A DNA stretch of 49,738 nt from Chthonomonadaceae bacterium. Its GTDB lineage: Bacteria; Armatimonadota; Chthonomonadetes; Chthonomonadales; Chthonomonadaceae. The translations under genes and the position numbers were made by a program. Where the stretch lies: the NCBI GenBank assembly GCA_025054835.1, contig JANWZQ010000140.1:1-49738 (forward strand), given 5' to 3'. Below the pieces are notes generated by a model, which saw only the letters and a list, made by a program, of their open reading frames with translations, was not told the DNA's origin and made no database searches. How positions within the stretch are numbered: the stretch's first letter is position 1; each line of letters begins with the position of its first letter. Positions 12,529-16,355 of the stretch are shown in pieces.

Positions 12529-13299
12529 ATGTCTCTGGCAACCACGTTCCCCACGCCCCCTGCCCGCTCCGGAAGGGAGGTCGGAGTTTGCCACACCGAG
12601 ACAGATCCCGATCTGGCCGCCATTGAACGTATCCGGCGTTACAACGACACCCGGGCGTTCGGCGAGATCTGGACGCGTCACTGGCCAGGCCTCTGTGCTT
12701 ACTTCCACCACCATGTGCGCAATCGCGAGGATGCAGAGGACCTTGCCAGCGAAACGCTTCTGACAGCGCAGACGCAGTTGCCCTCCTTCCGGGGTCAGGC
12801 CGCGTCGGCACCCCTCACTCCCTCGCCGAAGATTGGCGCAGAAAGCCCTGCTCAAGCAACGCAATGCGCTTCCTGCAGCTTCCGCACCTACCTGTACGCC
12901 ATTGCGCGCAATAAACTGGCCCGCTGGCTCCGGCGCAAGCGAAACCGGCCGGTAATGGGGTTCCACGATCTCTGCACGGAAGAGAGCACCGCAAACGCCG
13001 CGGCATTTCTGGAGCAGAAACTGGGCCCCGCACCTGAAGCGGATCCTCTAACCCCCCTGCTGCAGGAAGCTCACCGTGATGAGATCTGCATGGCGTTGGC
13101 CGAAGTGGGCATGCGATCCTCCGAACAGTTCAAAGCACTCATCCTGCACTATGGTTGTAAACTGCCCCACAAAGAGATCGCAACCCTTCTGGAGACACGC
13201 AGCGAAACCGTCAACTCGCGTCTGCAGGAAGGGCGGCGCACTCTGATGCGCCGTTTCGCCCCACAGCATTCTGCCGATGGACGTCAGGGCATCCAGTGA
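12529..13299 (+). CDS. ECF-type RNA polymerase sigma factor with an insertion
   Basis: A 256-residue sigma-70-family protein. Region 2 is visible as the FGEIWTRHWPGLCAYFHHHV and DAEDLASETLL segments, ending in the DNA-melting segment CSFRTYLYAIARNKLARWL. Region 4 is FKALILHYGCKLPHKEIATL followed by ETVNSRLQEGRRTLMRRF. Within region 2 there is an extra stretch (about residues 90-115: QAASAPLTPSPKIGAESPAQ and more) that typical ECF factors lack, and the N-terminus is extended by about 25 residues. No anti-sigma factor is adjacent; the next gene, 37 bases on, is unrecognised and has no membrane segment. AAAGGA lies rather far (about 13 bases) from the ATG, so the start is less sure. Confidence 0.85.
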   Translation: MSLATTFPTPPARSGREVGVCHTETDPDLAAIERIRRYNDTRAFGEIWTRHWPGLCAYFHHHVRNREDAEDLASETLLTAQTQLPSFRGQAASAPLTPSPKIGAESPAQATQCASCSFRTYLYAIARNKLARWLRRKRNRPVMGFHDLCTEESTANAAAFLEQKLGPAPEADPLTPLLQEAHRDEICMALAEVGMRSSEQFKALILHYGCKLPHKEIATLLETRSETVNSRLQEGRRTLMRRFAPQHSADGRQGIQ

Positions 13300-13336
13300 C
13301 TCTGTTGCCCTGTCGCAGTGAGAAGGAGTACGCACT

Positions 13337-14137
13337 ATGGCCGCCACGGAAATCCCCCCGATAGCCGGTAACGACTGCGCCTGTCGCCGCGCATTCCCTG
13401 CAGAGACACCGACAACTGGATGCGAAAAACCTGCGGAACGCGTTGCGCAATTTGGCCCCAATTTGATCCCGCTGTTCTACACGGCCCTGCGCGCCACACC
13501 ACGTCACCTGCAGTGGGAGAATCTCTACCCGAACGCCCCTGTCACCATCAACCTGTATGTTCTGACGGACGACCGGGAGTTGCATCTTCTGTTCTGTACC
13601 CGGTTGCCACCGGGTACCAGCATCTGCCCCCTGCCAGATGTGCAGGTCGAGCCGGGCCGTACTTGCATCTGGCGTGTTGTGTTTGACGTGCCGGGCGAAT
13701 CCGTCGCGTTGGAAGGCTACTTCTGGTTGTTGGAAAGGCACCAGCAGATGCGATGGGAGCATGGTTGCCGCGTCCTGCAGGAGGACAGCGATCCCGACTT
13801 CGCTGCTATCGGCATGGCCCTGTTTCTGGCCGATCTGCAACTGTATCAGGAAGCCCTGCAATGTATCCTCCAGGGCCCGGCACAATCCCGGCGCCCGGCG
13901 CGGGCTCTGCTGGCCTGCACTGCTCAGGCGTTGATCTACCAGCAGATGCACCGGAAGCTGGAAGCCATGCTGCACGCCGACGTTGCCGGCCCGGAAGCAC
14001 TGCATTGCTTTGCTCACTGGGCGGGGCAGCGCGCCCGATATTACCGGGAGAGAGCGGGCCAGTGGACTACCGCGAAGCCTGCATCGGCGGGGCAGTTGCA
14101 TGATCGTCAGCATGTGCTGGAGGCGCATGCGGCCTGA
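13337..14137 (+). CDS. Unrecognised protein in sigma factor operon
   Basis: A 266-residue protein of unknown family. The N-terminal 30 residues have several Cys (NDCACRRAF). Residues about 55-135 are predicted beta-rich (VTINLYVLTDDRELHLLF; GRTCIWRVVFDVPGES; LEGYFWLLE), loosely like DUF4384-type domains. Residues about 150-220 look alpha-helical and TPR-like (FAAIGMALFLADLQLYQEAL; ACTAQALIYQQMHRKLEAML). No signal peptide or membrane segment. AAGGAG lies eight bases before the ATG, so it is a real gene. It follows the ECF sigma gene by 37 bases and is probably cotranscribed, so a role in sensing for or binding that sigma factor is a reasonable guess, not shown. Confidence 0.75.
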   Translation: MAATEIPPIAGNDCACRRAFPAETPTTGCEKPAERVAQFGPNLIPLFYTALRATPRHLQWENLYPNAPVTINLYVLTDDRELHLLFCTRLPPGTSICPLPDVQVEPGRTCIWRVVFDVPGESVALEGYFWLLERHQQMRWEHGCRVLQEDSDPDFAAIGMALFLADLQLYQEALQCILQGPAQSRRPARALLACTAQALIYQQMHRKLEAMLHADVAGPEALHCFAHWAGQRARYYRERAGQWTTAKPASAGQLHDRQHVLEAHAA

Positions 14138-14274
14138 AAGAATTATTCCGGGCCGGATTTCTGCCAGAATCGGAAAGGTATCTCCGTTTCTGTGTTAAAT
14201 TTTATGTAGATGCATGACAGGCAAAACAGATTAGGATAACAGTGTCACAGGTCATCCATGTGCAGGTAAAAGCA

Positions 14275-14344
14275 TTGACAGAGTCCTGCCGTTGAGGCTC
14301 CATGCATCGACCTGTCGCGACGCGGAACGCGCTCTGGAACGCGC
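14275..14344 (+). promoter_or_regulatory. TTGACA box and tandem GGAACGCGC before XRE-TPR gene
   Basis: A perfect -35 hexamer TTGACA lies at 14275-14280, but no good -10 follows at 16-18 bases. The 9-base sequence GGAACGCGC occurs at 14324-14332 and 14336-14344, just before the SD site of the XRE-TPR gene. Tandem copies on one face (12-base period) could be an autoregulatory site. They could also be coding if translation starts at the upstream TTG (14292), where they encode ERALERAL. Confidence 0.3.
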
Positions 14345-14360
14345 ACTGAAGGAGATCACT

Positions 14361-16355
14361 GTGCCACCCAGAAGGAAGTGGAGCACCCCGGAAAAGCGTG
14401 CCCGCATCGGTGAGCGCATTAAAGTCGCTGCTTACCATGCCGGACTGACGCTGAAAGAGCTTGCGGAAGCGGTTGATACCCCACAGACCATTATCTACCA
14501 GTATGTGCGCGGTGTCACAACGATCCCGTCACAGTTACTGGACAGGATTGCTGCCGTCACCGGAGTCCATCGCGATTTCTTTGATCCGGATCAGGCAAAG
14601 CAGAGCACGGCGATCCTGCCCGAAAGCGCCCCTGCGGCACCCGGTCAGGAGCCGGACAACTGTGCCCTGGAGCATGCCACCGTCGTACGCATCCAGATCG
14701 AGTTTGAACACCTGCACCAGCTCGCCGAGGCATATAACTACCCCAAGCGCAATCGAAACGCCTATCTCTCGGCACTGGAACAGATGCTGGCGCTGGCCCG
14801 GGCCACAGAAGACCGTCGTAAGATGGCGTGGGCTTACTGGATGATCGGGCGTGCGCGCATGGAAGCCAGTGACTGGGAAGCGAGCCGACAATCTCTGGAA
14901 ACGGCGCGGGACCTGTTCGCCGCGGAAGGCATGGAAACGTACCGCATGAAAGTGCTGCTGGATCTGGCTCAGGGTCTGAACGAGCAGGGGCTCTTCGGAC
15001 GCGCACAGGCAGCCATGGAAGAGGCACTGTGCAGCACGGATCCGGATATTCAGTGGCGCGCACTGATCTCCCTGGGCAATCTCCACTATCGCCAGCACAA
15101 TTTCGGTGCGGCTCTGCACCACTTCAATCAGGCGGCAGCGTTCATTGGCCAGAGCCATCACAGAGAAGCTCCTGAAAAGCGCGAGGAGGCCGTGCTGCAC
15201 CTGATCAACCACATTGCCGATGTAGTGCGCGCTACTGGACACCATGAGGAGGCTATGCTCCTCTGGGCGCGTTGTCTGGAACAGGCAGTTCGGGACCGCA
15301 ATGCGGAAGTGCTCCTGGAATCGTTGATTGAGGTCGCCCGATGCTGCCATCTCACGGGGCGAATCAGCAAAGCGAAACAGCATCTGGAACAGGCCGCGGT
15401 GCTGGCCCGGCTCCTCTTTGAGGACGAAGCCCGTCTGAGCGTAGCCCGCGCACATCTGGCCCATGTGCTGGTGACCATGGGTGCACTGGATGAGGCCCGG
15501 GAGAACGCTCGCGAGGCCCTGCAGATCGCTCATCGCGTGCGGGGCCCACGTCCCACCATCCTCGCGGCACTCGCGCAGGCCGAAACCAGTCTGATGGCAG
15601 GACACTGGAAGGAAGCTCTGCTGGAAACACAGGACGCGCTGCATGAGGCACAGCGTACACAGAGAACCCGGGAGCTTGCACAGACCCATGAAGTCCGTGC
15701 GCGTGCCTTCCTGCAGGAAGCCGGTATGCACCGCGCCGCAGACGACAGGACGCAGGAGCAGGCCGCTCTCGCCAGCGCATTGCAGGAAGCAACTCATGCC
15801 CTGGACATTGCCGCCCGTGCCGAGTCCATCCATGACCGTATTGCCGCCCACCTGACACTGGCGCGTTGCTACTACCATGGAGGCCATGCCGAAGCCGCGG
15901 AACAGGAGGTGCGCGCCTCCCTGGATTTGATCCAGAATGGGGCAGTCGGCCTGAACCGGCTCATGGGCCGCGAAGCGACCTGCCTCACCGACCTCCTGCG
16001 CTCACCGGAAATCAACGTGCAACGCCTGTTCGCCAGCCACCGGGTTCAGTTGCCATTCGTGGAGTGGCAGGCGCGCTACCTGGAGGGCAAGCTGCTGGCG
16101 CACAGAGTCGGATCCGAAGCCGCCTTCGCAGCGATGCGCCATGCGCTGATGGCCTTGCAGCAGATCCTGAACGACCTGTCGCCCGCGGAAGCCACACGGT
16201 TCCGGCAGCAACACCCGGAAGTATCCGCCCTGATCGCAGATCTGCAACGGCATGCGCTCACGGAGGAGGCCCGTCAGGAGATGAGAGCGCTGCTGATGTC
16301 CACGCCCTGCCTTGTCTCCGAGCTCACCTGCCCGGGTCTGCTCACCGCGGAATAA
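14361..16355 (+). CDS. XRE-type HTH regulator with C-terminal TPR array
   Basis: A 664-residue protein. Residues about 15-75 form a Cro/C1-type helix-turn-helix (IKVAAYHAGLTLKELAEAVD, then TPQTIIYQYVRG). The remaining 580 residues are helical TPR-like repeats (AYWMIGRARMEASDWEASRQ; ALISLGNLHYRQHNFGAAL; ARAHLAHVLVTMGALDEARE). This layout resembles peptide- or ligand-responsive XRE-TPR regulators, where the TPR part senses and the HTH binds DNA. The ligand is unknown. The GTG at 14361 has AAGGAG six bases before it. An upstream TTG at 14292 would add 23 residues, including an ERALERALKE repeat, and cannot be excluded. Downstream genes start only 31 bases later, so it may share a transcript with the esterase. 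Confidence 0.85.
   Translation: MPPRRKWSTPEKRARIGERIKVAAYHAGLTLKELAEAVDTPQTIIYQYVRGVTTIPSQLLDRIAAVTGVHRDFFDPDQAKQSTAILPESAPAAPGQEPDNCALEHATVVRIQIEFEHLHQLAEAYNYPKRNRNAYLSALEQMLALARATEDRRKMAWAYWMIGRARMEASDWEASRQSLETARDLFAAEGMETYRMKVLLDLAQGLNEQGLFGRAQAAMEEALCSTDPDIQWRALISLGNLHYRQHNFGAALHHFNQAAAFIGQSHHREAPEKREEAVLHLINHIADVVRATGHHEEAMLLWARCLEQAVRDRNAEVLLESLIEVARCCHLTGRISKAKQHLEQAAVLARLLFEDEARLSVARAHLAHVLVTMGALDEARENAREALQIAHRVRGPRPTILAALAQAETSLMAGHWKEALLETQDALHEAQRTQRTRELAQTHEVRARAFLQEAGMHRAADDRTQEQAALASALQEATHALDIAARAESIHDRIAAHLTLARCYYHGGHAEAAEQEVRASLDLIQNGAVGLNRLMGREATCLTDLLRSPEINVQRLFASHRVQLPFVEWQARYLEGKLLAHRVGSEAAFAAMRHALMALQQILNDLSPAEATRFRQQHPEVSALIADLQRHALTEEARQEMRALLMSTPCLVSELTCPGLLTAE

Follow-up and report, generated by a model that had tools for sequence, protein, structure and literature searches.

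The window, a 49,738-nucleotide stretch from a draft genome (3.7 Mb, 97% complete) of a Chthonomonadaceae bacterium, carries a row of three forward-strand genes that encode an ECF sigma factor, a 266-residue protein, referred to here as the partner, and an XRE-TPR regulator (Table 1). All three are genuine genes at this place and on this strand. An antisense open reading frame (13211-14128) or non-coding DNA in place of the partner gene was considered and rejected, since the forward frame is kept in five genomes. The partner gene starts 37 nt past the sigma gene and has a good Shine-Dalgarno sequence, bearing out the tight linkage described in an earlier sequence-only reading of this DNA. A single operon in the window is likely, because the partner and XRE-TPR genes share a 4-nt overlap (ATGA) in one relative (G008) and lie only 38 nt apart in another (G027), and because no forward terminator was found in the window's 223-nt spacer between partner and XRE-TPR. 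Upstream of the set lies a gene for a SAM hydroxide adenosyltransferase, downstream one for a SASA-family esterase. As the same reading had stated, no membrane anti-sigma gene stands next to the three genes.

Table 1. Coordinates of the three-gene set in the window and of associated features at loci of related genomes
Feature	Position	Strand	Description
ECF sigma factor	12529..13299	+	256 aa; sigma2 and sigma4, no fused extra domain
L3 segment of sigma	12796..12879	+	28 residues (QAASAPLTPSPKIGAESPAQATQCASCS) between FRG and FRTYL
Partner (predicted soluble)	13337..14137	+	266 aa; predicted disordered N-terminus 1-45, Ig-like 48-131, helices 134-245
Spacer, partner to XRE-TPR	14138..14360	+	223 nt
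XRE-TPR regulator	14361..16355	+	664 aa from the probable start GTG 14361
Promoter and putative leader hairpin regions, three relatives	L008 7043-7123; L015 365-458; L010 7210-7300
Repeat protein	L010 2784-3401; L032 4675-5358; L033 6575-7282; L034 463-1170		~200 aa; four genomes, one family

The first gene product matched TIGR02937 (E=1.5e-20) and, above the Pfam cut-offs, Sigma70_r2 and Sigma70_r4_2. With sigma2 and sigma4 but neither region 3 nor region 1.1, it belongs to the ECF (group 4) sigma70 factors. Its EDAEDLASET segment (region 2.2, DAED motif) and its region 4 helix-turn-helix are both intact, and the protein ends about 17 residues past region 4. What sets it apart is the L3 loop between FRG and FxTYL, which spans 28 residues in the window and 12, 13, 13 and 15 in four relatives. 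In the other ECF sigmas measured this loop has 3 residues, in a few cases 4-7, so that the 25-residue insertion in region 2 claimed by the sequence-only reading matches the excess found here. These lengths refer to fetched ECF sigmas with a measurable loop; some alignments of Chloroflexi sequences were interrupted here, and a regular-expression count gives 4 for those. The ordinary short L3, usual but not strictly defining for the ECF family, is thus absent from the window sigma, and among the sigmas measured the lengthened loop is confined to the partner-associated clade, which it marks. A frameshift or assembly error was rejected as its source, given that the reading frame runs on and that all four relatives carry a shorter form. 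L3, residues 63-72 in E. coli sigmaE, builds the pocket into which the flipped master nucleotide of the -10 element fits (PMC6372665), and exchanging the loop exchanges promoter specificity (PMC6372665; PMC8103513). The insertion is predicted to be disordered: residues 88-114 have a pLDDT below 50, among the least confident parts of an AlphaFold model that is weak overall (mean pLDDT 56.7) and informative for L3 disorder only.

The partner was placed by the sequence-only reading in no known family, and this holds for curated collections: Pfam, NCBIfam and PHROG gave no family, one sub-threshold NCBIfam match (E=0.025) aside. Its sequence returned only noise against the PDB and no useful match in BFVD. 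The AlphaFold model of the partner (three sequences), with pLDDT of ~80-89 across most of residues 50-180, predicts a disordered start, a seven-strand Ig-like sandwich and then TPR-like and longer helices. The top Foldseek match was the C-terminal domain of MtxA (PDB 4z29; E=3.6e-6, 184 columns, 169-residue chain), a chain that contains both the Ig-like and the TPR part, although the two structures superpose loosely (rmsd 10.1, TM 0.54 by target length). Both folds are described in the MtxA paper, which notes that prediction servers had failed to detect them (PMC4439547). Profile comparisons point the same way. A partner profile weakly matched a protein of genome G275 (E=8.7e-4), whose family (L093-L098) appears to be built of a signal peptide followed by FecR-like, Ig and TPR parts. 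Aligned with hhalign against six such MtxA-like proteins of Armatimonadota, the partner profile scored 97.2% probability (E=3.5e-11, 149 columns), compared with 0.4% for the sigma profile as a negative control; the MtxA-like profile in turn matched the G027 partner among the fetched open reading frames (E=5e-8). DUF928, weakly matched by three of the six MtxA-like proteins, is a weak further relative. Judged by these alignments and the predicted fold, the partner is a remote homologue of the C-terminal half of MtxA-like FecR-Ig-TPR proteins, a kinship that qualifies its earlier description as a protein of no family.

MtxA is known from magnetotactic bacteria, where its gene lies beside a CHASE2 cyclase. 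In other Armatimonadota, signal-peptide FecR-Ig-TPR proteins (L093, L094, L095, L096, L098) likewise sit mostly beside CHASE2-type cyclases or histidine kinases, which they follow, the FecR and CHASE2 labels at these loci being our reading of the sequences. While the partner shares the Ig-like and TPR parts of the C-terminal half, it differs from these proteins in lacking the FecR-like N-terminal half and the signal peptide, and begins instead with ~45 apparently disordered residues and no hydrophobic start; by hydropathy, none of the five partners has a signal peptide-like or membrane segment. Its gene lies beside an ECF sigma gene rather than a CHASE2-type cyclase or histidine kinase gene, neither of which was found immediately next to the three genes in the window or at L008-L010. 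We regard the partner as a cytosolic offshoot of the MtxA-like Ig-TPR family. No anti-sigma Pfam match was obtained for it, its cysteine positions vary among the partners and no zinc motif is recognizable. The possibility that it is an ASD anti-sigma factor was rejected, as profile and fold support are both absent.

The third gene product is, as the sequence-only reading had it, a large XRE-TPR protein, with HTH_3 and TPR_12 above cut-offs and several further TPR matches. Its start, however, probably lies at GTG 14361 and not at TTG 14292, because an AAGGAG site stands ahead of the former and the orthologues align from there. The TTG version (687 aa) would place 23 extra residues ahead of the orthologue-aligned part, and no good ribosome-binding site precedes it. 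RRNPP-type regulators consist of an N-terminal HTH followed by TPR repeats and have the gene of a cognate secreted pre-peptide nearby. The XRE-TPR protein shares the HTH-TPR combination, but its TPR array is about twice as long.

The sequence-only reading had suggested looking for the same gene order elsewhere. A protein search of 61 relatives turned up convincing homologues of the partner in three cases (22-28% identity), all encoded directly after an ECF sigma gene and before an XRE-TPR gene (41-46% identity). A profile of four partners, built without G018, found a fifth in that genome (E=6.5e-11; E-values of the genome searches are per genome), again with the sigma gene ahead and the XRE-TPR gene behind. 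The order is kept in 5/5 genomes with a partner, which represent five genera and two families of Chthonomonadales (Armatimonadota), and its persistence amid otherwise different surroundings led us to reject chance neighbourhood. When 291 genomes of the phylum were searched with a sigma profile, five members scored 330-358 bits and all others at most 90 bits; the five sigmas are a discrete clade, present in exactly the five partner genomes. XRE-TPR orthologues (41-49% identity) occur in these five and also in G005, G010 and G013, which have neither sigma nor partner, and more distant versions in five further genomes; G010, a 73% complete draft with its XRE-TPR gene on a 3.1-kb contig, weighs less. 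Two genomes of one genus are instructive. G006 has the order PfkB, sigma, partner, XRE-TPR, rhodanese and TrpB, and G013 has PfkB, XRE-TPR, rhodanese and TrpB without the sigma and partner genes, from which we conclude that the latter two were gained or lost jointly. The XRE-TPR proteins of the two genomes are sisters (100/99 support), and the XRE-TPR tree requires three label changes. Sigma and partner are therefore the core unit, and the XRE-TPR regulator is separable because it is found without them in three genomes. The three-gene signalling unit envisaged by the sequence-only reading stands as regards gene order and the finding that sigma and partner occur, or are missing, together; its third member is more loosely attached.

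Scanning a contig collection with the partner alone gave no match, and the sigma profile recovered two clade members there, both from Chthonomonadales, the rest being generic ECFs of low identity save over short stretches. A candidate partner homologue at L007 (E=0.0056) was dismissed as spurious, lying antisense to a glycosidase-like open reading frame. A mobile or viral origin was likewise rejected: the XRE-TPR gene is unmatched in plasmids and the sigma factor has no relative in viral contigs.

Upstream of the sigma gene, sigma70-like extended -10 promoters are present in G006, G027 and G018, and no recognizable promoter was found at this position in the window or in G008. The promoters of the three relatives suggest that the housekeeping sigma, and not the operon's own sigma alone, directs its transcription.

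The anti-sigma factors that hold most ECF sigmas have a recognizable domain. In the canonical arrangement the adjacent gene encodes a transmembrane segment and an anti-sigma domain, neither of which occurs here, and soluble class I anti-sigma factors carry an ASD or ZAS domain that the partner lacks. Soluble anti-sigma factors are nevertheless an established class (PMC8999054), and the present locus resembles their ECF pairs in that a gene for a soluble protein directly follows the ECF sigma gene with no membrane anti-sigma nearby. It departs from them in its Ig-TPR partner without ASD or ZAS, in an L3 of 12-28 residues and in having an XRE-TPR regulator as the third gene. ECF42 sigmas are similar in their association with TPR repeats, but there the repeats form a fused C-terminal extension, whereas here they lie on a separate protein together with an Ig-like domain.

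We propose, with a probability of about one half, a cytoplasmic binding interaction through which the partner controls the sigma factor, together with control of the operon by the XRE-TPR protein. The sigma factor would bind RNA polymerase in the ordinary fashion, as its intact sigma2 and sigma4 domains and DAED motif suggest. The cytosolic Ig-TPR partner would most likely contact it directly and set its activity, with the exposed L3 loop as a speculative candidate for the contact, and the DNA-binding XRE-TPR regulator would most likely respond to a cytoplasmic ligand or protein by adjusting transcription of the operon, as a separable input layer on the sigma-partner core. Ig and TPR folds are commonly protein-binding. 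We favor control of the sigma by the partner because the two are present and absent together in a conserved order, because the long L3 is found only in their clade, and because the partner is soluble and composed of Ig and TPR folds while the sigma lacks a fused C-terminal regulatory domain. Several findings count against this proposal: the partner lacks a recognizable anti-sigma domain and a zinc motif, its nearest structural relatives are not anti-sigma factors, the window has no recognizable promoter and a long gap ahead of the XRE-TPR gene, and the pairwise divergences of sigma and partner correlate only modestly (r=0.44; 10 pairs from five sequences).

Within this proposal the partner would act as a soluble non-ASD anti-sigma factor, by analogy with soluble partners encoded just downstream of their sigmas. 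That it is instead a fixed activating subunit, such that the sigma is inactive or promoter-blind until the partner docks, forms the less likely branch; listed apart, this ECF42-like arrangement split over two genes seems unlikely to us. The analogy is that ECF42 sigmas depend on their TPR extension to be active (PMC8999054), and it would suit a loop that governs -10 specificity (PMC6372665) and whose extra length is confined to the clade linked to the partner; against it, the insert varies from 12 to 28 residues and is predicted to be disordered. Bolder still, and decidedly improbable, is the idea that sigma and Ig-TPR protein together make up a two-part promoter-recognition unit in which the partner docks on L3 and alters or licenses recognition of the -10 base. 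If true, ECF promoter specificity would be set in trans by a partner and not by the loop sequence alone.

Other explanations leave the partner without any contact to the sigma. The sigma might be controlled only through transcription by the XRE-TPR regulator, with the partner as an effector or otherwise co-regulated product. Transcriptionally regulated ECF sigmas are known (PMC8999054), and the sigma70-like promoters of the three relatives would allow another regulator to set expression. We still regard this as rather unlikely, for the XRE-TPR gene stays behind in G005, G010 and G013 without the pair while sigma and partner never separate, and nothing in the partner points to an enzyme or a transporter. 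Those same three genomes, in retaining the XRE-TPR protein without a partner, also speak against a model in which the partner works with the XRE-TPR regulator through TPR-TPR or Ig contacts and passes a signal to this DNA-binding protein. The TPR-type repeats of both proteins, the adjacency of their genes and the translational overlap in G008 would fit such a pairing, which we nonetheless consider very unlikely.

The locus represents a lineage-restricted variant of ECF regulation. It looks like a self-contained switch, with control that appears to differ from the usual membrane-bound inhibitor, and it places an ECF sigma together with an Ig-TPR protein whose family otherwise occurs in the role of accessory to CHASE2-type sensors. 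Should the partner control the sigma, sigma partners would gain a new class, and the locus would offer a natural case in which to test the effects of L3 insertions on promoter opening. Being confined to one order of the poorly studied Armatimonadota, it has limited general reach.

Two minor features accompany the unit in related genomes (Table 1). Following the sigma70-like promoter, the presumed leader contains a hairpin of 11 pairs in G006 and G018, and in G027 a hairpin can be seen by eye (AGAGAGA...TCTCTCT); such a hairpin may act as an attenuator or else as terminator of the preceding gene. A conserved protein of ~200 aa, with three similar repeats of the GSWRxAVEYSGLNYEEIRxY type, is encoded no more than a few kb ahead of XRE-TPR genes.
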